Positions 4,428 to 14,780 of a stretch of DNA of 14,780 nt are shown here, piece after piece; the stretch's first letter is position 1, and each line of letters starts with the position of its first letter. The translations under genes were made by a program, and so were the position numbers. The notes under the pieces are model-generated. The model searched no databases, was not told where the DNA came from, and saw nothing but the letters and a program-made list of their open reading frames with translations. The stretch is from Coriobacteriaceae bacterium (GTDB lineage Bacteria; Actinomycetota; Coriobacteriia; Coriobacteriales; Coriobacteriaceae): contig CABJEP010000023.1 of NCBI GenBank assembly GCA_902364645.1, positions 7,065 to 21,844 on the forward strand, written 5' to 3'.

Positions 4428-4799
4428 CTAGGAGAGCGGCTCCATCTCGCCGAAGCAGTTGATGTGGTGGCGAAGGAGTGCGCGGTTCTCCTTGACGACC
4501 ATCATCGCCACCTCGTCGAAGCGGACCGGGGTGCCGGCGTAGTCGTCGCCGTTGCCGGCGAGCCACCTCGCCGCCAGCGCCTCGCGCAGCCCGCGCGCCC
4601 TGTGGGCCTCGGGGAAGCCGTCCGTCCCGATCCGGACCGTGGCGTCGACGAAGACCAGGGTCCCGTCCTCGTCCACCGCCACGAGGTCGATCCCGCCGAT
4701 GCCCTCGGGTCCCTGCCAGGCCTCGTCGACGATCTCGTAGCCCTTGCGCTCGAGGAAGGCCTTGACCGCGCCCATCGCCTTTTCCTTCATGTCGTTCAT
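4428..4799 (-). CDS. YraN/UPF0102-like protein with altered nuclease motif
   Basis: A 123-residue protein with the layout of the YraN (UPF0102) family, a predicted endonuclease fold related to Holliday-junction resolvases: an N-terminal helix ending FLERKGYEIVDEAW, then GIGGIDLVAVDEDG (about 34-47), LVFVDATVRIGTDG (48-61) and a helix with ARGLREALAARWLAG. In active members the core reads GEIDL and FVEVKxR. Here the second motif is FVDATVR: the Glu is Asp and the Lys is Thr, so nuclease activity is doubtful. ATG 4799 has AAGGAG 7 bases upstream. It precedes parA on the same strand but is separated by a hairpin and operator-like repeats, so it is probably its own unit. Confidence 0.75.
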   Translation of the reverse strand: MNDMKEKAMGAVKAFLERKGYEIVDEAWQGPEGIGGIDLVAVDEDGTLVFVDATVRIGTDGFPEAHRARGLREALAARWLAGNGDDYAGTPVRFDEVAMMVVKENRALLRHHINCFGEMEPLS

Positions 4800-5346
4800 G
4801 TCTTGCTCCTTAGACTCTGAGGCCCGCCCCTGTGGCGTGCCTTGCGCCGCGTGAGTCGCATGCAGCGCGGGCGTGCCTGCAAGGGAGGAAGCGAAGTCGG
4901 GCATGGAAATAGAAGTCTCCCGACGGCAGTTTTTCGCGTTGTTCGCGCGCGGAGCGCATGGGGCGAAGAACCCGAAAAAGTGTCGCGGCCCTTGCTGGCC
5001 GCCTGCCGGCGTGCGACCCTGCGCGTCCAAGGAGCGCCGGGGCGGGTATTCGGATCAAAGGGGCGCAGGCGTGCGGCATGGAATCCGGCGTGGGCGCCGA
5101 GACCCTCCGGGCATGGGATGCGGCCCATCGGCGGTTGCTGGGCTCCCGCGGGGATTGACGACGACGTCGTGGCGGGGACGGAGGCGGGTTCCCGAGTCGC
5201 GGCGCCGCGGCATGAGTCGGGACGGACGGCTTTCCCGTGCCGCTTGCGGCCGATATGCGCACGGGACCGCGGGCGGCGAGATGGTTCTCCGCATGGAACG
5301 GCTACGGTGCTGCGCGACACGTCCGTTGAGAGAAGGAGGCGAGCTG
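4800..5346. other. 547-base GC-rich gap without a convincing gene
   Basis: This lies between two divergent genes and must hold the promoters of both. A plus-strand frame is open from 4873 through to the gene at 5347, but its product is rich in Arg, Gly and Pro, has no domain, and looks like chance openness in high-GC DNA. A start at 4903 would give MEIEVSRRQFFALF, which contains a twin-arginine-like pattern but no hydrophobic stretch after it. Short palindromes occur (ACGACGTCGT, GCGGCGCCGC). I could not place a clear -10/-35 pair on either strand. Confidence 0.5.
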
Positions 5347-5740: not shown

Positions 5741-5773
5741 TATAATGCTGCAAACGCATTTGTATTGCATTTC
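5741..5773 (+). promoter_or_regulatory. Promoter with -10 box and repeated GCATT operator-like boxes
   Basis: A perfect TATAAT at 5741-5746 lies about 45 bases upstream of the small RHH gene; the -35 region (around 5718-5723) is weak. Overlapping and following it are AATGC (5744-5748, inverted) and two direct GCATTT copies (5756-5761 and 5767-5772) spaced 11 bases, one helical turn. Ribbon-helix-helix proteins typically bind short boxes with such spacing, so the downstream protein may repress its own operon (inference). Confidence 0.55.
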
Positions 5774-5790
5774 GAGCGATGGGAGCGCAG

Positions 5791-6003
5791 ATGCCCGACA
5801 GCTACAAGGAGCTCATCAAGAGCAATCCCGACGAGACCGAGATCAGAAGCTTCCTGGTGGACGGCGACCAGGTCTCCGTGACCCTGCGCATCCCCGACAC
5901 CCTGCGCGACGCGGCGAAGGAGGAGGCGGCCCTGCGGGGCATGAGCTTCTCCGCCTTCGTGCGCACCTGCATGATCGAAGAGCTCGCGAAAAAGGGGGCA
6001 TAG
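5791..6003 (+). CDS. Small ribbon-helix-helix (CopG/Arc-type) protein
   Basis: A 70-residue protein. The C-terminal half, VSVTLRIPDTLRDAAKEEAALRGMSFSAFVRTCMIEEL, has the pattern of a ribbon-helix-helix DNA-binding domain: a beta strand with alternating residues, helix 1, a turn, then the SFSAFVR helix 2. ATG 5791 is chosen over ATG 5779 because GGGAGCG sits at ribosome-binding distance from 5791. It is the first gene of the helicase operon, 4 bases ahead of the helicase start, and a GCATT-box promoter lies upstream. The likely role is autorepressor or antitoxin-like regulator of the defence operon; no separate toxin gene is adjacent. Confidence 0.75.
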   Translation: MPDSYKELIKSNPDETEIRSFLVDGDQVSVTLRIPDTLRDAAKEEAALRGMSFSAFVRTCMIEELAKKGA

Positions 6004-6007
6004 AGGC

Positions 6008-9000
6008 GTGAAGTCGCTAAGCAACGTCGGCGCGGAGCGCCTGGGAGACGCCCTCGGCGAATCCATCGACGACGGCGCGAAGTTGTCGATAATCAGCTCG
6101 TATTTCACCGTGTTCGCCTACGGGGAGCTCAAAGAGGAGCTCTCCAAGGTCGACGAGGTGCGCTTCCTGTTCAGCGAGCCCACCTTCATCAAGCGCATGG
6201 CCGACTCGAAGGAGCCGCGCGAGTTCGAGGTAGCCCGCCGCGCGCGCGAGGTCGGCGTCGGCGGCTCGGGGCTCGAGCTCACGCTGCGCAACAACCTAAA
6301 CCAACGCGCGCTCGCCCGCGAATGCGCCGAGTAGATCCGCGAGAAGGGCGTCTTCAAGTCCGCCAAGACGTCCGGCGCCATTCAGCCGGGCGGCACCTAC
6401 GTGGTGGAGAACCCATCCGGCGACGACCACGCCTTCATGGGCGCCGCCGCGAACTTCACGCAGGAGGGCCTCGGCTACGAGCGCCGTCCGGGAACCGTGA
6501 CCTGCGTGAGCCATTTCGAGAACGCGACCGAGGCCGTCGGCCTCAAGATGATGTTCGAGTCGGTCTGGGACAACCCTGCCATGGTCGAGGAGGTCACCGC
6601 GCAGGTGGCCGCCCAGGTCGAGACGCTCTACCGCGAGAACCCGCCCGAGTTCATCTATTTCCTGACCCTGTACCACCTGTTCCGCGACTTCATGGAGGAC
6701 GACGAGGACAACGGCATCCGCCCCGGCCTCAAGTTCGAGGAGTCCGTGGTCTGGAGCAAGCTCTACGACTTCCAGAAGGACGCCGTCGTGGGCGCCATCC
6801 GCAAGCTGGAGAAGTACAAGGGCTGCATCATCGCCGACTCGGTGGGCCTGGGCAAGACCTACGAGGCGCTCGCCGTCATGAAGTACTACCAGGAGCGCAA
6901 CGACCGCATCCTCGTGCTGTGCCCGAAGCGCCTGCGGGACAACTGGACCCTGTGGACGCAGGACAACGACGACCGCAACCCGCTGGCCGACGACCGCTTC
7001 AGCTACACGGTGCTCAACCACACCGACCTGTCGCGCTACCACGGCATGAGCGGCGAGGTGGACCTCGAGCACCTGCGCTGGGGCCACTTCGACCTCCTCG
7101 TCATCGACGAGAGCCACAACTTCAGGAACAAGAGCACCGACGCGGACAAGACCGACCGCTACACGCGCCTCATCGAGGACGTCATCAAGTCGGGCCAGCG
7201 CACGAAGGTGCTCATGCTCTCTGCCACCCCGGTGAACAACCGCCTGCTCGACCTGCGAAACCAGATCGAGCTCATCACCGAGGGAGACGACGCGTACCTC
7301 GCCGATACCGATGGCATCCCGTCGATCACCCACGTGACGCGCGTCGCCCAGCAGAGGTTCAACGAGTGGAGCAAGCTCTCCGACTCCGAGCGCACGACCG
7401 AGAGCTTCGTGAACGCGGTGAACGCCGACTACTTCAAGCTGCTCGACGTGCTGACCATCGCGCGCAGCCGCAAGCACATCACGAAGTACTACGGCGCCGC
7501 GAGCGGTACCTTCCCGGCGCGCCGGCCGCCCCTGTCGTTTCAGACGCCCATTGACCTAGAAGGCGAGCTGCCGCCGATTGCCGTGCTCAACGACATGATC
7601 GCCCAGCTCACGTTCGCCCAGTACCAGGTGCTCTCCTACGTGCGCGCCGACCAGCGCCGCAAGTACGAGGACCGCTACGGGGACACGTGGGGCAAGGACT
7701 TCGAGAGCCAGGTCCACCGCACGACGGCGGTGGCCAACCTCATGCGCGTCAACGTCCTCAAGCGCATGGAGTCCTCCGTGAACAGCTTCCGCATCACGCT
7801 GCGACGAATCCTCGACGGCTGCGTCGACCTGCGCGCGAGGCTCGACGCCGACGCGTCGGGGGTCGCCTACGGCACCGAGGGCCTCGAGGACGGGTTCGAC
7901 GACGACGATGCCGAGGAGTTCGAGGCCGGCGGCAAGGTGCGAGTCGACCTGCGAGACGTCGACGCCCTGCGCCTGGGCCAGGACCTCGACTTCGACATCC
8001 AGGTGCTCCGGGCCCTGCTAACCTATGCCGACGCGGTGACGCCCGAGCGCGACGCCAAGCTCGTGAAGCTGCGCGACTTCACCGCGGGCAAGGTCAGCGA
8101 GCCGTACAACCCCGGCAACCGCAAGGTGCTGGTGTTCAGCGCGTTCGCCGACACGACGGCGTACCTTTTGAGCAGCTGGCGCCCTGGCTGAAGCGCGAGC
8201 TCGGAATCGAGTGCGCCGAGGTGGCGGGCAGCTCCAACCGGACCTACTCGCTGAAGCTTCCCAGGACCACCTTCGAGAACATCCTCGCGAGGTTCTCTCC
8301 CGTCTCAAAGGAGCTGCCGGAGAGCCAGCGGGAGCTCGGCGAGATCGACGTCGTCTTCGCGACGGACTGCATCTCCGAGGGCCAGAACCTGCAGGACTGC
8401 GACTGCCTGGTGAACTACGACATCCACTGGAACCCCGTGCGTATCATCCAGCGCTTCGGCCGCATCGACCGCCTGGGATCGAAGAACTCCCAGATCCAGC
8501 TGGTCAACTTCTGGCCGGACATCGCGCTCGACGAGTACATCCAGCTCGAGGGCCGCGTGAAGGGGCGCATGGCGCTGCTCGACGCGTCGGCAACCGGCGA
8601 GGAGAACGTGCTGGAGGCCAAGGGCAATGGAGAGATGAACGACCTCAAGTACCGTCGCCGGCAGCTCCAGCAGCTCAAGAGCGAGGTGCTCGACCTCGAG
8701 GACATCTCGGGCGGCATCTCGATCACGGATTTCGCCTTCGACGACTTCCGCGTGGAGCTCCAGCGCTACGCCAAGGAGCATCCCGGCGCGTTGGAGAACT
8801 CGCCGGCGGGACTGCACGCCGTGGCCCCCATCCCCGACGAGCTTCGCAGCGACGTGAAGCCAGGCGTGGTCTTCTGCCTCAAGCAGAACGACGAGGGCAA
8901 CGATCCCAGGGACACGAACCCTGTCTTCCCGTACTACGTGGTGTACGTGTCGGCCGACGGCGAGGTCATGACGAAGCACACCCAGCCCAAGCCGGCGCTC

Positions 9001-9252
9001 GACATCATGCGCGCCGTCTGCTCTGGGCATCCCGAGCCCATCGCTAAGCTGTGCCGCGAGTTCAACCGCGAGACCCGCGACGGGACGAGGATGGACGCCT
9101 ACACCGACCTGCTTGACGATGTCGTTGCGGCCATCACCGGAACGCAGCAGGACAAAGGCATCGAGAGCCTGTTCAGCCTGGGAGAGGTCGGCAGCGGCAC
9201 CGTCATGGGCTTCAACGACTACTCGTTGGTATGTTTCGCGGTGCTGCGATGA
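6008..9252 (+). pseudogene. PLD-like/SNF2-family helicase, broken by an amber codon and a frameshift
   Basis: About 1,081 residues if restored. The N-terminus (about 1-160) is phospholipase D-like: ISSYFTVFAYGEL and GAAANFTQEGLG match the fold, but the HxK histidine appears lost (SAKTSG). A SNF2/superfamily 2 helicase follows: Walker A GLGKT (280-284), DESH (367-370), SATP (405-408), FATDCISEGQNLQ and QRFGRIDRLG (about 815-825). Lesion 1: TAG at 6332-6334, codon 109, with the same frame continuing as IREKGVFKS; a Trp codon there is likely original. Lesion 2: at 8166-8169 the T run is one short, since five Ts would restore AYLFEQLAPWLKREL. The start is GTG 6008 just after the RHH stop. The end overlaps the next gene by ATGA. 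The predicted role is DNA translocation in a defence system; this copy is probably inactive. Confidence 0.85.
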
Positions 9253-10031
9253 GCGGCATCGACTGGAACGGAATCCTGCGCCTGCCCGAAGCGGCGCTCG
9301 CGGGATGCCGCCGCATTCCCAAGACGGTGCTCGTCAAGCAGGCCATGCTCACCAAGACCGAGCAGAAGAGGCTCGACAAGGTCGCGCGCCTCGAGCACTT
9401 CGCCACGGTCCAGAAGTCCACGACGCGCATCCCGCCGTACGAGGACGACGAGCGCAACGTGCAGAGCGTCGTCTTCCTCCGTTGCGAGATGACAGCCGGG
9501 ACCATGGCGGTGGCCGAGGTGGCGGAGCTCGTGCACAAGTGCTTCCCGAACCCGACGGTGCTCCTGGTCGAGGCGGGCGGCTGCGCGTGCATATCGGTCG
9601 CCCTCACGCGGAGGAGCCAGGCCGAGCAGGGCGCGACGGTCGTCGACCGAGTCGAGTCGACGGGCGCGTTCGATCCTGGCCGTTCAGAATACGCGGACTT
9701 CCTAGGCGCGCTGGCATTCGGGCGGCTCTCGCAGGGCGACCTCTGGGAGTACCTGGTCGACCTGTCGCGCACCGTAGCGCTGTCCCGCGCGATTGGCGGC
9801 CTGGGGTTCTACCCCGTATGCCCCGCTCGAGACCGGGAAAAGCTGATCGCCCTCACGTCGCGCTACGATGAGATGGGAGCCTCCGTCAAGCGGCTGAAGG
9901 AGCAGCGGCGGTCGAAGGACATAACGCTCAACGAGTCCGCGAAGCTGAGGATGGAAATGAAGGAAGAGGAGCGACGCCTGAGGGCGGTCGCCGATGAGAT
10001 AAAGGAGATCTGCAATGGCCGTTCTAGATGA
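9249..10031 (+). CDS. DUF4391-like protein
   Basis: A 260-residue protein. ATG 9249 is chosen because it overlaps the helicase stop (ATGA), although ATG 9231 is also in frame. The N-terminal pattern, LPEAALAGCRRIPKTVLVKQAMLTKTEQKRL, then VVFLRCEM and VLLVEAGGCACISVAL, fits DUF4391, a family found beside SNF2-type helicases and Type III-like methyltransferases (from memory of such neighbourhoods). The C-terminal ~70 residues form a charged coiled-coil-like stretch (KRLKEQRRSKD, MEMKEEERRLRAVADEI). No catalytic motif is evident; a bridging or targeting role between helicase and methylase would be speculation. The frame is intact, unlike its upstream neighbour, and ends 17 bases inside the next gene. 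Confidence 0.7.
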   Translation: MSGIDWNGILRLPEAALAGCRRIPKTVLVKQAMLTKTEQKRLDKVARLEHFATVQKSTTRIPPYEDDERNVQSVVFLRCEMTAGTMAVAEVAELVHKCFPNPTVLLVEAGGCACISVALTRRSQAEQGATVVDRVESTGAFDPGRSEYADFLGALAFGRLSQGDLWEYLVDLSRTVALSRAIGGLGFYPVCPARDREKLIALTSRYDEMGASVKRLKEQRRSKDITLNESAKLRMEMKEEERRLRAVADEIKEICNGRSR

Positions 10032-10809
10032 GTATATTTTGCGAGCGGCGCGCCTTTTGAGTGATGCTGCAGATGAGGATGTTGATGCGCTCTGCCGTGA
10101 AATCATGCAGGTCTTCGACCTCGACTACACTAACCCCGAGGCTTTAAAATATATCAATTCCTCAAGCTCATTTCGCTACTCGAAAAGCGACCTAGGGATG
10201 ATTCTCCAGAAGCTGCGCCTAAAGCGGGAAGACTCAGACGACAAAGCGTTCGGTGCCGCATTCTGCGCAACTATAACGCAGCATATCAGGAGACTGGAGC
10301 AAGCTCTTGAAGAGGGCGTGAAAGACGACGAGCTCAAAGCCGTATACGACTCAATCGACTACGTCTACGCAAACGCGAGGGGCTACGACTCCTACACGGA
10401 CGGACTAGCCTCCTATTCCTATGGGTCTTCCAATCGCAATGATTTCAACGATGAACAGACGCAACTACGTATCGACAAACTGAAGCATTTCCGTGATGAG
10501 GAGCTCCGTAAGCTGAAAATCGCCGAAGCGCAGGGCGCTAGCGTCAGCCTCACGGCATCCGCCACGAGCAACGTACAGGTCACGTTAGAGGCAACCTTTG
10601 AACAGATTGACAAATTGCCAGAGACAACGCTTTCCGATGACGAGAAGACGCTGCTCAAAGGGATGATGGGCGATCTCAACACAAAAGATAAAAGCAAACG
10701 GGGCAGCAAGCTTGACAAACTCCTGAGCTGGCTTGCCGGCAAGGGCACCGACGTTTTTATTGCCGCCATGCCCTACATAGTTCAACTAATCAAATCTCAA
10801 CTTTCCTAG
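10015..10809 (+). CDS. Unrecognised defence-operon protein of lower GC content
   Basis: A 264-residue protein with no family I can name. ATG 10015 has AAAGGAG 6 bases upstream and overlaps the DUF4391-like gene by 17 bases. The N-terminal half is helical and acidic, with a Ser/Tyr/Asp-rich low-complexity patch (about 116-145, ANARGYDSYTDGLASYSYGS). Then come a charged helix, a beta-rich segment (VSLTASATSNVQVTLEATFE), an acidic helix with LSDDEKTLLKGMMGD, a Lys-rich linker, and a hydrophobic C-terminal helix (DVFIAAMPYIVQLIKSQL). That C-terminal layout recalls tails of some abortive-infection-type proteins (weak inference). Codons are noticeably more AT-rich than in the helicase, suggesting a separate origin or module swap within the operon. 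Confidence 0.7.
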   Translation: MAVLDEYILRAARLLSDAADEDVDALCREIMQVFDLDYTNPEALKYINSSSSFRYSKSDLGMILQKLRLKREDSDDKAFGAAFCATITQHIRRLEQALEEGVKDDELKAVYDSIDYVYANARGYDSYTDGLASYSYGSSNRNDFNDEQTQLRIDKLKHFRDEELRKLKIAEAQGASVSLTASATSNVQVTLEATFEQIDKLPETTLSDDEKTLLKGMMGDLNTKDKSKRGSKLDKLLSWLAGKGTDVFIAAMPYIVQLIKSQLS

Positions 10810-10820
10810 GAGGAGACCTC

Positions 10821-12056
10821 ATGGGCGAGATAGAAAAGATGACTCTTGAATCGGAGAGTCTTATTGACGACCGCCTGAATAAGCTCAAGGAGCTGATGCC
10901 CGAAGTGTTCTCCGAGAGCGGAATCGACTTCGACAAACTGCGGCTGGAGCTTGGCGACGAGGTAGACGAGGGCCTGGAGCGCTATGCGTTCACGTGGCCC
11001 GGCAAGGCCGATGCCATCCGCCAGTCGCAGATGTCCAGCACTGCTACTTTGCGTCCCCGTATCGAGAAAAGCCGCAGCCGCGATGGAGAGGATGGGTCCT
11101 TCGACTCGGACAACATTTATATCGAAGGCGACAATCTCGAGGTGCTGAAGCTCCTACAGCGCGGCTACCACGGCAAGGTCAAGATGATCTACATCGACCC
11201 ACCCTACAACACGGGTCACGACTTTGTCTACAAGGACAATTTCGGCAACTCTGTCGATAACTATAAGGAGCAGGCGGGACTCGCCGGCCAGTCCAACGCC
11301 GACACAAGTGGCCGCTACCATAGCGACTGGTGCTCGATGATGTACCCTAGGTTGAGACTGGCTCGAGAGCTCCTAACCGACGATGGCGTCATTTTCATTT
11401 CGATTGACGATAACGAAGACCGCAATTTGCGCATCCTCTGTGACGAGGTGTTCGGAGAGGCAAATTTCGTTTCTCAGCTAATCTGGGAACGAGCTTACTC
11501 GCCCAAGAATGACGCCAAATACGTTTCAAATAGCCATGATTATGTTCTCGTATACGCCAAATCCATTGAGCGCTTTGTGATTGGACGCCTGCCGAGAACA
11601 GACGAGGCAAACGCCCGCTACAAGAATCCAGACAACGACCCTCGAGGCGTTTGGAAGCCAAGCGACCTCAGTGTAAAGACTTACAGCCCAGATTCCGACT
11701 ATCCAATCACAACGCCCTCGGGGCGTGTTGTAGAGCCTCCAGCAGGACGCTGCTGGAGGCTCTCGCGAAACGCGTTTCGCGAGAGACTCCAGGATAACCG
11801 CATTTGGTTTGGCCCAAACGGCGACAGCGTCCCTTGCATCAAGCGTTTCCTAACAGAGCTCAAATATGATGGAATGGCTCCAACTTCAATCATGTTTTAC
11901 AAAGAAGTGGGTCACAGCCAGGAAGGCGCCAAGGAGCTCGTATCTCTATTTGACGGAAAGGGCTATTTCGATGGACCGAAACCGACGAAACTACTTCAGC
12001 GCCTGATAACCCTTGCGAATCTGCTAATGTGCGATAAAGAAGTAATAGAAGTGTAA
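10821..12056 (+). pseudogene. Type III-like DNA adenine methyltransferase (Mod), 3' end lost
   Basis: Ribosome binding site AGGAGGAG overlaps the previous stop, 11 bases before ATG 10821. The 411 residues include the N-terminal segment with EGDNLEVLKLL (about 101-111) and the catalytic DPPYNTG motif (about 125-131), then SGRYHSDWCSMMYPRL, DDGVIFISIDDNE and a conserved target-recognition stretch with PPAGRCWRLSRNAF and NRIWFG. In this methylase class the SAM-binding FxGxG motif lies after motif IV, near the C-terminus; here the homology stops at KPTKLLQRLITLAN and a few unrelated residues (MCDKEVIEV) lead to a stop. Usual Mod proteins are about 550-650 residues, so roughly a third is missing and activity is not expected. 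Loss coincides with the tet(W)-segment boundary. No Res gene follows. Confidence 0.85.
11712..11792. repeat. Cluster of three adjacent hairpins inside the mod coding sequence
   Basis: Hairpin A, 11712-11726: ACGCCC/GGGCGT with a 3-base loop. Hairpin B, 11732-11763: a perfect 13-bp stem (AGAGCCTCCAGCA) with a 6-base loop. Hairpin C: a perfect 24-bp palindrome at 11761-11784 (TCTCGCGAAACG half), extended to 40 bp at 11753-11792 with one mismatch. B and C share 11753-11763, so they are mutually exclusive. The encoded residues belong to the conserved GRCWR/NRIWFG part of Mod. Confidence 0.75.
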
Positions 12057-12109: not shown

Positions 12110-12735
12110 TTAGGCTTCCGGCAAGTCTATCTTGCCGACAAAGCTGTAATAAATCTCAATGTCCTGCCTGCGGGTGCCGTTCTCGTCATAGCTGCACTCA
12201 TGCACGACGATTTTCTCAATCATTTCCCGCAAGAGGGTGGGGGTCAATTCTTCAAAAGCAAGGTGCTTTCTCACAATCCCCATGAATTTCTCGGCGTTGA
12301 CGGTGGCGGCCTGCGACTTGGAAAGTTCCTCCTGCAAAGCGGCAGCCCGGTCTTTCAGTTCCCGCTGCTCCTGCTCATAGTCCGCCGACAGCTCCATGAA
12401 ACGCTCGTCGCTGATTTTGCCGCTTACATTGTCCTCATACAGCCGCTTGATAATGCGGTTCACTTCGGCAATGCGTGTCTGGGCCTGTTCAAGCTGCTTC
12501 GTGGCTGCGGCGGTCTTTCTCTTGCCGCCGATTTCGTTCTGCTGGATGAGCAGCTTTACAAAGCGGCTCTCATGCCTGGCGGCGTATTCCGTCACTTGCC
12601 GGAGATTGGAAAGCACGCCCGCCGTCAAAAGGTCGGTGCGGATAAAGTGTGCCGTACAGTCACGGGTACGCTTCTTGTAGCTGCCGCAGATATAACAGTC
12701 CTGCTTGCGGTTCTATTCGTCTGTTCCTGGTTCAA
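12110..12735 (-). pseudogene. Large serine recombinase remnant (internal deletion)
   Basis: The frame from 12712 to the stop at 12110 encodes about 200 residues of a large serine recombinase C-terminus: the second half of the zinc ribbon (DCYICGSYKKRTRDCTAHFI), a coiled-coil region (KQLEQAQTRIAEVNRIIKRL, DYEQEQRELKDRAAALQEEL) and the DUF4368-like end IEIYYSFVGKIDLPEA. The resolvase catalytic domain is missing. A TAG at 12715-12713 blocks this frame, but just upstream a TTG at 12735 with AGAGGAG at ribosome-binding distance starts LNQEQTNR, like the N-termini of such recombinases, and runs into the remnant out of frame. The simplest reading is a deletion of about 1 kb joining codon ~8 to the zinc ribbon. 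The gene would originally have mobilised the tet(W) element; it now cannot. Confidence 0.8.
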
Positions 12736-12816: not shown

Positions 12817-14748
12817 TTACATTATCTTCTGAAACATATAGCGCACCTTGTCCAGGCGGCTGTTTGGACGGCGGGGCTGGATGACTGGCTTGCCGACAGC
12901 GGCCTGATACCCTTTCAGTTCTGTAAGGCATACGCTCTGCCCGTTGGTGTAAAAGGCCAGATCAGTACGGTATGCCTGTATACAGCGGGCGGGAATCTCG
13001 CCAGTAAAGACAACTTCATCCTTTTTTACCTGGACCGTTTCGATGGTGGCACAGTATTTCGGTGCATCATGATAAGCCCTGGAAAGATATTCCCGGGGCG
13101 CATAGAGGGTGAAGGAGAGATAAGGTTCCAGCAGTTGCGTCCCTGATTCCTTCAATGCCTGTTCCAATACAATCGGGGCCAATGAGCGGAAGTCCGCCGG
13201 CGTGCTGACCGGACTGTAATAAAGCCCGTATTCAAAGCAAATCTTACAGTCCGTTACGTTCCAGCCGAACAAGCCCTGCTCCAGCCCGTAACGGATACCA
13301 TCCCTGACAGCGTTTTGAAAACTCTGGTTCAAGTATCCCAGCGAAACCCGGCTCTCGTATTGTACACCGGAGCCAAGCGGGAGTGGTGTAACAGACAGTC
13401 CGATGGATGCCCAAAACGGGTTGGGCGGCACCTCGATATGGATGGTGTGGCTGGCTGCTTTGAGCGGCCGCTCCATATAAATGACGGTGGGTTCCTTTAC
13501 CACTGTTTCAAGCTTGTATTTTTCCGACAGCAAAGCGGAAACAACCTCCAACTGCACCCGGCCCAAAAAAGAAAGAATGATCTCATGGGTGATGGAATCC
13601 ACCTCGCAGCGCAAAAGCGGGTCAGTATCCGCAAGTTGCGTAAGAGCGTCCAGCAGCCGTTCTCTTTGCGCTGCCGTTTTCGGCGCAATCGACGTCCGCA
13701 GCATGGGGAGGGGGTCCTCACGCCACCTTTTACGAGGGAGCCGGGTTGGGTCCCCTAATACATCGTTTAACCTCACGCTGTCGCTGGGAAGGATAACAAT
13801 TTCACCCGGATAAGCGGTGTCTGTCCGAACAATTTCCCCTTTGGATGGAATACGCATCTCTGTGATTTTCAGCTTTTCTCTCCCGGCCAGGGCCACCGTA
13901 TCCCGCAGGCGCAGCGTTCCGCTGTATAGCCGTAGATAGACACGCCGCTGGCCGCAATCTGTATACTCCACCTTGAAAACGCTGCCGCATAGGGCGGCGC
14001 TCCCCTGTTCCCCAATCGGTTGGAACAGCCCTGTCACCGCATCCATCAACGGTTGAATGCCAAGGCCCTTTTTGGCGCTGCCATAATAGACCGGGAACAG
14101 GGAGGCGTCTTGAACCCGCCGCTGTTCCTCCCGCACAAGTTTTTCCCGGCTGATTGGTTCTCCTGCGATATACTTTTCCAATAATTTATCGTTATTTTCG
14201 ATGACCGCATCCCATGCTTCTATGTCGGTATTTTCCTCCAGGACTATTTCCGGGGACAGCGACACCGTCTGCTTGATGATAATATCGGCGGAGAGCTTAT
14301 CCCGAACAGACTGAACCACGCTCTGCAAATCAACGCCAGCCTGGTCGATCTTGTTGATAAAGATAACGGTGGGAATGTTCATTTTCCACAGGGCATGGAA
14401 CAGAATACGGGTCTGGGCCTGCACGCCATCTTTAGCGGAGATCACCAAGATGGCCCCATCTAAAACAGCCAAAGAGCGGTACACCTCCGCCAAAAAATCC
14501 ATGTGGCCGGGCGTATCCACAATGTTGACTTTACATCTGTGCCACTGGAAGGAAGTGACTGCCGCTTGAATGGTAATCCCACGCTGCCGCTCCAAAAACA
14601 TGGTGTCCGTCCTCGTTGTCCCTTTTTCGACGCTCCCCGGTTCTGAAATGGCTCCGCTGGCATATAGCAGGCTCTCCGTCAAGGTCGTCTTTCCAGCGTC
14701 TACATGGGCAAGAATTCCAATATTGATTATTTTCGGCTTATAGGACAA
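12817..14748 (-). CDS. tet(W): Tetracycline resistance ribosomal protection protein Tet(W)
   Basis: A GTPase related to EF-G that removes tetracycline from the ribosome. It shows the G motifs AHVDAGKT (14-21), DTPGH (78-82) and NKID (132-135), and nearly all of it matches Tet(W) as I remember it, including the ending [18 protein letters not shown] (usual ending ...KVRHMFQKVM). Usual length is 639 residues beginning MKIINIG. Here the ATG position is CCG (14736-14734) and the frame stays open to the window edge, so the only in-frame starts seen are TTG 14748 or ATT just before it; neither has a ribosome binding site. The coordinate given uses TTG, and the true start may lie outside the window. 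Scattered substitutions (such as W121 for R) mark a variant allele. Confidence 0.93.
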
Positions 14749-14780
14749 AATGTGTGTCCCGATAGAACATCCGTTTCCAT

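Follow-up and report, generated by a model that had tools for sequence, protein, structure and literature searches.

A disrupted Type III restriction-modification operon with SNF2-type ATPase and DUF4391 genes next to a mobilizable-element backbone in a Coriobacteriaceae bacterium

Introduction

The closest precedent for the locus analyzed here is a group of N4-methylcytosine (m4C) Type III restriction-modification (R-M) systems that encode a third ATPase. An extra helicase-like superfamily 2 (SF2) ATPase, devoid of a nuclease motif and of unknown role, is reported near mod and res in more than 500 genomes (Murray 2021, PMC8259958). In Eco86II and BspHIV, the corresponding gene is located immediately 5' of mod, and the excerpt of that report on which we draw mentions no DUF; the extra ATPase was needed neither for methylation nor for cutting in vitro (PMC8259958, same excerpt). 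Here we describe a stretch of 14,780 nucleotides from a Coriobacteriaceae bacterium (assembly GCA_902364645.1, contig CABJEP010000023.1, positions 7,065 to 21,844), referred to below as the window. Its plus strand carries an operon consisting of a ribbon-helix-helix (RHH) regulator gene, a SNF2-type ATPase gene in three pieces, a DUF4391 gene, a gene for a protein assigned to no family, and the front part of a Type III mod gene. We propose, with a probability of roughly 0.55, that the window, part of a mobilizable element, holds a nonfunctional copy of a widespread operon combining Type III R-M with a SNF2-type ATPase and a DUF4391 protein. The anatomical part of this proposal (gene order, families, and lesions) is near certain. 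A first-pass annotation, made from the sequence alone, had described a restriction-type multigene operon, and the recurrence of the gene order across phyla bears this description out.

Results

The order found elsewhere comprises a small regulator (often), the SNF2-type ATPase, DUF4391, an optional cargo gene, the Type III Mod, and the Type III Res. This gene set was seen in Coriobacteriales, in Escherichia coli chromosomes, and on plasmids from one archaeon and from members of four other bacterial phyla. Among 395 genomes of the Coriobacteriales, the order to which the window belongs, DUF4391 was found at 33 places in 29 genomes. Of these places, 27 were examined with their flanks; the remaining 6 comprised partial or weak matches and second rows of loci already counted. 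The ATPase was located upstream at 27/27 of these loci, accompanied by Mod at 26 and by Res at 21, the absences falling at contig ends, and 19 of the 27 were preceded by a regulator of this type (at about 1 kb in L052; G and L numbers are our labels for genomes and loci). In an even sample of the phylum, PF14335 was detected in 7 of 296 genomes and in none of 14 control genomes. The ATPase and Mod adjoined it in all seven, with Res in six, the seventh contig being 4.2 kb long. The flanks of the collected homologues thus confirmed that helicase-DUF4391-Mod(-Res) neighborhoods recur, as stated in the first-pass annotation, and intact copies end in Mod plus Res. Plasmids gave the same picture: of 72,556 records, 30 matched a Paraburkholderia DUF4391 query and 116 matched the ATPase. 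All 22 of the 116 that were examined (15 found via DUF4391; 20 Listeria records left out) carried the ATPase, DUF4391, Mod, and Res at least in part, in hosts belonging to the Pseudomonadota, Bacillota, Thermodesulfobacteriota, and Bacteroidota (Persicobacter) and in the archaeon Methanomethylovorans. The E. coli plasmid pEC21Z137-115K (L109) also carries an intact four-gene operon. A close copy of the ATPase-DUF4391 pair was present in 10 of 5,426 E. coli genomes; strains CFT073, NCTC11023, H5, and GPEC996 have the four genes in order, and strain 042 has Mod-Res alone.

Searches of the 395 genomes with the ATPase (E ≤ 1e-60) and with Res (E ≤ 1e-100) gave at least 77 places in 74 genomes and at least 74 places in 72 genomes, respectively, both counts being lower bounds because at most two candidates were scored per genome (one ATPase row, the second piece of a single gene in G346, was dropped from 78). 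A Res gene was paired with the ATPase downstream, on the same strand and within 15 kb, at 56 of the 77 ATPase places, a count that includes remnants such as G357 and G177. The loci were divided by an identity cut, not by a tree, into group A (ATPase at least 60% identical to the query) and group B: 23 pairs fell in group A, 33 in group B, and none was mixed. Of the 21 unpaired ATPase places, 18 were at contig ends, the rest being G093 (Type I genes), G277 (an OLD-like gene and Mod), and G213 (a remnant). In searches that started from the ATPase, DUF4391 was the next gene in 7/7 plasmid records, 4/4 E. coli genomes, and 7/7 group B loci. In a mirror-tree comparison of 43 loci, the correlation coefficients of ATPase distances were r = 0.958 with Res, 0.956 with DUF4391, and 0.843 with Mod, values that none of 999 permutations reached; the loci include near-identical copies (L039, L062, L063, and L065), which raise r, and shared descent alone would give high values. 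These correlations reflect inheritance as a unit, not function, and the lower value for Mod may stem from an exchangeable recognition region.

Table 1. Features of the window and the evidence for each
Feature	Position	Strand	Evidence
Putative promoter/operator	5741..5778	+	TATAAT-like box and TTGTATTGCA element directly 5' of regulator
RHH (YlcI/YnfO-like) regulator, 74 aa	5779..6003	+	NF041551, 36.4 bits (cut-off 30); Arc-like repressor PHROGs
SNF2-type ATPase, N-terminal piece	6008..6334	+	Open reading frame list; ends at in-frame stop; same region open in relatives
SNF2-type ATPase, middle piece (ATPase core)	6401..8191	+	SNF2-rel_dom 3e-11; PADLOC C3a139 2.6e-64; same frame as first piece; stops at frame change
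SNF2-type ATPase, C-terminal piece (Helicase_C)	8170..9252	+	Helicase_C 7.6e-12; PADLOC C3a139 1.2e-41; different frame
DUF4391 protein	9231..10031	+	PF14335 E 4.2e-26, 92.7 bits (cut-off 29.9)
Optional cargo gene, 264-aa protein	10015..10809	+	92 homologues; AlphaFold2 pLDDT (predicted local distance difference test) 81, all-helical
Type III Mod, N-terminal part	10821..12056	+	PADLOC MTase_III E 1.5e-134; DPPY at residue 126; S-adenosylmethionine (AdoMet) motif I missing
Serine-recombinase fragment (DUF4368 part), inserted cassette	12110..12628	-	PF14287 7.8e-23
Tet(W)-type ribosomal protection gene, inserted cassette	12817..14748	-	NF033148, 1278.8 bits
UPF0102 (YraN)-like protein	4428-5030		Mobile backbone, after ParB/ParA

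The first-pass annotation had read the ATPase as a single gene for a SNF2 helicase with an N-terminal phospholipase D (PLD)-like domain. Its SNF2 and Helicase_C parts were recovered (Table 1), and the gene is interrupted in the window by an in-frame stop and a frame change, which may represent either true decay or sequencing errors. The N-terminal piece has no Pfam, NCBIfam, or PADLOC family match, and the open frame holding the C-terminal piece starts earlier, at position 7687. In near-identical relatives the ATPase is a single open frame of 1092 to 1102 codons; its size elsewhere is about 1,080 residues. SNF2 motifs were found in three intact relatives, for which the top PADLOC model was C3a139 (labeled HKD+Snf2; 4e-111 to 4e-121); we did not find this model name in the open-access literature searched. 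Among proteins of solved structure, those nearest in sequence are RapA and SWI/SNF-type ATPases, and the E. coli protein matches, over its full length, a PHROG of unknown function.

The PLD part of the reading was not supported. None of 54 distinct ATPase N termini fitted the HKD patterns tested (HxKxxxxD or HxK...G[SAT]-type), no HKD motif appeared in an alignment of 26 N-terminal sequences, and Pfam searches of the ATPase, PLDc_2 included, and a profile search of the PDB returned no PLD match and no PLD chain, respectively. The PADLOC label HKD+Snf2 is therefore not borne out by the pattern and profile tests applied to these sequences, and neither is the fusion of a PLD nuclease domain to the helicase. 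Scans of 40 whole genomes detected PLDc_2 in 31; the sole match in G001, a near-identical relative of the window, was on another contig, and G018 had none. Comparison of the N terminus with PLD by hhalign gave probabilities of 0.9 to 17%, with controls at 0.1%, on a small set (15/20 PLDc_2 segments, several without the motif and possibly off-register). Columns F150 and G156, which belong to a residual F-x4-LG half-motif, were invariant in the alignment, and this domain may be a decayed PLD fold.

The first-pass assignment of the next gene to DUF4391 was confirmed by Pfam (Table 1). In the window this gene overlaps the ATPase gene by 22 bases from its first ATG or by 4 bases from the second ATG (9249), the position at which most listed homologues begin. 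Across 24 loci the DUF4391 start lies -22 to +11 nucleotides from the ATPase stop, a spacing that suggests coupled translation. The AlphaFold2 model (pLDDT 91) shows an alpha/beta head followed by long helices. Conservation across phyla is confined to short features (a K after the start region, P-x-P, and the helical end), and no nuclease motif was recognized. In the open-access literature searched, DUF4391 was found only as a row in a gene-function table, and 1 of 50,697 phage records contained it.

The protein encoded at 10015, set down as unclassified by the first-pass annotation, indeed has no match in Pfam, PADLOC, NCBIfam, or PHROG. Its gene occupies the DUF4391-Mod gap at 7 of 27 loci. 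Overall it was found in 12 of the 395 genomes, 7 times in this gap and 5 times elsewhere. Three of the five other places were examined: in G120 (L221, 6030-10789), a relative with one internal stop adjoins a different Type III-like Mod/Res; in G186 (L222), it stands beside an AAA ATPase; and in G226 (L220), beside a transposase and sugar genes. No relative was found in the viral contigs searched. Gene content of the DUF4391-Mod or Mod-Res gap varies by locus and includes an OLD-like nuclease (G277), an OLD-like nuclease with DUF2130 (E. coli H5), an ATP-binding protein (Raoultella), a weak GmrSD-like match (Acinetobacter gerneri and Persicobacter), and, at some loci, a second Mod. The gene at 10015 thus looks like optional cargo of the DUF4391-Mod gap. 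G+C content drops from about 0.65 to about 0.52 around 10.0 kb, upstream of the resistance cassette described below; the cargo gene and Mod therefore differ in composition from DUF4391 and the ATPase.

The Type III-like Mod of the first-pass annotation stands as to family and falls as to an intact gene. The mod gene is cut at ~12.03-12.08 kb, before the AdoMet motif, by a tet(W)-like cassette, and the only FxGxG-like match in the encoded protein (377) is off the motif I position (439 in G018). Both DPPY and FxGxG are present in the Mod proteins of G018 and Paraburkholderia; our simple pattern gave no FxGxG in that of E. coli. No Res is encoded within the window. In G001, the region beyond the cassette contains the rest of Mod, a Res of 1,020 residues carrying NPDW...ETK, a DUF4238-like protein, and a GmrSD-type protein. 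The Res proteins of Paraburkholderia and E. coli match PADLOC REase_III with an E value of 0, and PD...ETK was found in three relatives, with mod directly 5' of res. Of the gene set as a whole, PADLOC recognized Mod (in the window) and Res (in relatives) as Type III R-M components, placed the ATPase in C3a139, and left DUF4391 and the protein encoded at 10015 unassigned; assignment to known systems was therefore partial.

The window is 99.95% identical to G293 (L039) over 14,734 bases. Over shared stretches, identity to G001, which contains every word sampled from the window, is 99.92-99.95%; the values for Arcanobacterium haemolyticum (L062), Varibaculum vaginae (L063), Bifidobacterium asteroides (L065), and Slackia faecicanis (L068) are 99.9%, 99.5-99.9%, 98.5%, and 97.0%, respectively. 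In all six of these relatives a tet cassette splits Mod at a common junction or close to it; the recombinase fragment had a match in four (G001, G293, Slackia, and B. asteroides) and none in A. haemolyticum and V. vaginae. Insertion of a resistance cassette has thus interrupted the restriction module of this mobile element, which has spread among distant actinobacteria with almost no change in sequence. With a Mod lacking the AdoMet motif and a broken ATPase gene, the window copy is expected to have neither modification nor accessory function, and its sequence makes a functional operon unlikely.

Three further observations concern the cassette. In Enteroscipio rubneri (L050/L074, 10753-15600), a similar tet cassette lies in Mod at about residue 323 in the opposite orientation, apparently the result of a separate insertion event in this gene. 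In L195, L197, L198, and L232, the tet gene is present with adjoining operon genes absent or cut, ATPase matches stopping at residue 290 or 775 beside tet; these losses are probably deletions flanking the insertion. The last 46 bases of the window (14735-14780) fall outside the megablast matches to the aligned relatives; either the resistance gene begins differently here or the sequence at the end of the contig is not to be trusted.

The regulator matched the RHH family that the first-pass annotation had named (Table 1). The element TGTANTGCA starts 12 to 20 bases 5' of the regulator start at 15 of 18 loci (several of them close copies of one another), with 0.03 expected from mononucleotide shuffles, and is absent from four distant plasmid loci. 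The regulator may bind this element. In a group B operon (L200, 5403-5624), the regulator is 88% identical to that of the window and the promoter is much alike, whereas ATPase identity to the G018 query is only 45%; separate exchange of regulator and promoter is therefore possible.

The left 4.4 kb of the window, on the minus strand, is by Pfam the backbone of a mobilizable element, encoding a relaxase, a NikA-like mobilization protein, ParB, and ParA. The UPF0102 (YraN)-like gene (Table 1) adjoins ParA in other copies of the element. A megablast search of plasmids with the whole stretch gave a single 59-base match.

Discussion

As in EcoP15I-like systems, Mod would mark self DNA in intact copies of the operon, and the Mod-Res complex would cut incoming DNA that lacks the modification. 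The ATPase and DUF4391, whose genes abut, may form a DNA-motor/adaptor complex that does not itself cut, DUF4391 being the putative adaptor. This complex could aid the restriction enzyme on incoming DNA by loading, moving, or resetting it, an aid that might be useful, for example, on DNA with a small number of target sites or with sites in the wrong orientation. The RHH regulator would autoregulate the operon via the conserved promoter element. We favor this account of a Type III system with an accessory, noncutting ATPase-DUF4391 pair, and the probability of roughly 0.55 given above applies to it; the accessory role of the pair, taken on its own, has at best an even chance.

Several observations weigh against this account. 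No ATPase peptides were seen in an active preparation of Eco86II, which makes the ATPase dispensable for cutting there, as far as the cited excerpt goes (PMC8259958). Eighteen of the 74 Res places had no paired ATPase, some of them being at contig ends or next to cassette-side deletions. A distant search of the 5,426 E. coli genomes detected Res in 251 versus the ATPase in 68, most of the listed Res matches spanning ~5% of the query. In G195 (L201), the DUF4391 match beside Mod-Res is weak (21%), and the 6.8 kb beyond it contain no match to the ATPase; in G277 (L200), the order ATPase-DUF4391-OLD-Mod is followed by no Res in the 1.1 kb visible past Mod. The head domain of DUF4391 matched no solved fold, and the open-access literature searched contained no experiments on these loci. 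In G093 (L199, 638-11966), the regulator, the ATPase, DUF4391, and a 125-residue frame are followed on the same strand by Type I genes (methyltransferase, 6e-197; specificity, 3e-93; restriction, 3.5e-22).

The arrangement in G093 raises the possibility that the ATPase-DUF4391 pair is portable; among the collected loci longer than 5 kb, no other matched its three Type I genes at an E value of 1e-20. On a wider and more tentative reading, which we hold to be possible without favoring it, the pair would be a portable, nonnucleolytic motor-adaptor module for ATP-dependent restriction systems, Type III as a rule and Type I in G093, and the gap would take up additional defense genes as cargo. If so, it would be a general restriction accessory that the callers tested do not name as a unit.

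Other explanations start from the same genes. The pair might be an independent defense system whose link to Type III R-M goes no further than a common operon, as the dispensability of the nearest published ATPase for methylation and in vitro cutting (PMC8259958, excerpt cited above) and the position of the pair ahead of a Type I system in G093 would allow. We consider this unlikely, though worth keeping in view: Res accompanies the ATPase at 56 of its 77 places, no pair crosses the identity groups, ATPase distances track those of Res as closely as those of DUF4391, and nearly all unpaired places (18/21) sit at contig ends. Alternatively, the pair could regulate or restrain the restriction module without adding to restriction, for instance by delaying Res during plasmid transfer to a new host. 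Conjugative or mobilizable plasmids make up 21 of the 30 DUF4391 plasmid records and 75 of the 116 ATPase plasmid records, and establishment control of Type III EcoP15I is described in the part of a review on which we draw (PMC12707154). A SNF2 motor of 1,080 residues would seem costly for mere timing, however, and the pair occurs in chromosomal copies too, which leaves restraint improbable.

Two further proposals concern what the ATPase or the window would do as encoded. That the ATPase is an HKD-nuclease/SNF2 effector that itself cuts DNA, as in Type-2 BREX-related systems, is suggested by its top PADLOC model, which is labeled HKD+Snf2 and covers residues 3-1094 of the E. coli protein; the failure of all 54 N termini to fit HKD patterns, together with the absence of PLDc_2 matches and of PLD chains in the PDB profile search, makes such an effector very improbable. 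A working DISARM-like operon in the window as it stands would fit the theme of a SNF2 helicase beside a methylase and the weak DrmD similarity. It is scarcely credible, with an ATPase gene in three pieces, a Mod whose truncation stands even if the ATPase lesions are sequencing errors, DrmD models far below cut-off, and scans of window proteins that revealed neither a DrmA nor a DrmB encoded separately.

The preferred account, a Type III system with an accessory pair, can be set against described systems one by one. DISARM resembles the locus by a SNF2-like ATPase beside a methylase and differs from it by the Type III Mod-Res found here instead and by the lack of separate DrmA and DrmB. As a candidate DISARM helicase, the ATPase was rejected: the DrmD model gave 84.1 and 63.9 bits with the window pieces and 152.5 with the intact E. 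coli relative, against a cut-off of 610, which upholds the caution expressed in the first-pass annotation. Weak DrmA-model matches in the window fall on the ATPase core. Type-2 BREX-related systems, as far as the cited excerpt goes (PMC12839542), likewise have, next to a methyltransferase, a SNF2 helicase that carries an additional N-terminal domain, but their helicase bears an HKD nuclease, their N6-methyltransferase is a different one, and they include a DUF499 ATPase and DUF3780; Pfam matched neither DUF499 nor DUF3780 among the window proteins scanned. ARMADA is built from different components according to the excerpt consulted (PMC12458937), the operons with Rad25-like or SNF2 helicases in the excerpt of a paper on prokaryotic MORC proteins are other ones (PMC2292703), and the papers listed in an open-access literature search for the MADS system were unrelated.

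Likeness is greatest within Type III R-M itself. As in EcoP15I and EcoPI, Mod carries DPPY (with motif I in G018 and Paraburkholderia), Res in relatives has SF2 motifs and a C-terminal PD...ExK, and mod directly precedes res. The locus differs from these enzymes by two extra conserved upstream genes, a regulator, and a cargo gap, and the window is without an intact Mod or Res. The m4C systems with a third ATPase, compared by description only and as far as the cited excerpt goes (PMC8259958), share an extra SF2 ATPase without a nuclease motif upstream of mod and res; unlike Eco86II and BspHIV, the window and all loci examined from the ATPase (plasmid, 7/7; E. coli, 4/4; group B, 7/7) have DUF4391 between the ATPase and mod. 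Our survey thus adds a regular partner, DUF4391, to the ATPase reported in 2021 without a function, shows that the two co-diverge with Res, and argues against a PLD nuclease. The naturally intact E. coli copies offer a setting for a direct test of ATPase-DUF4391 function.

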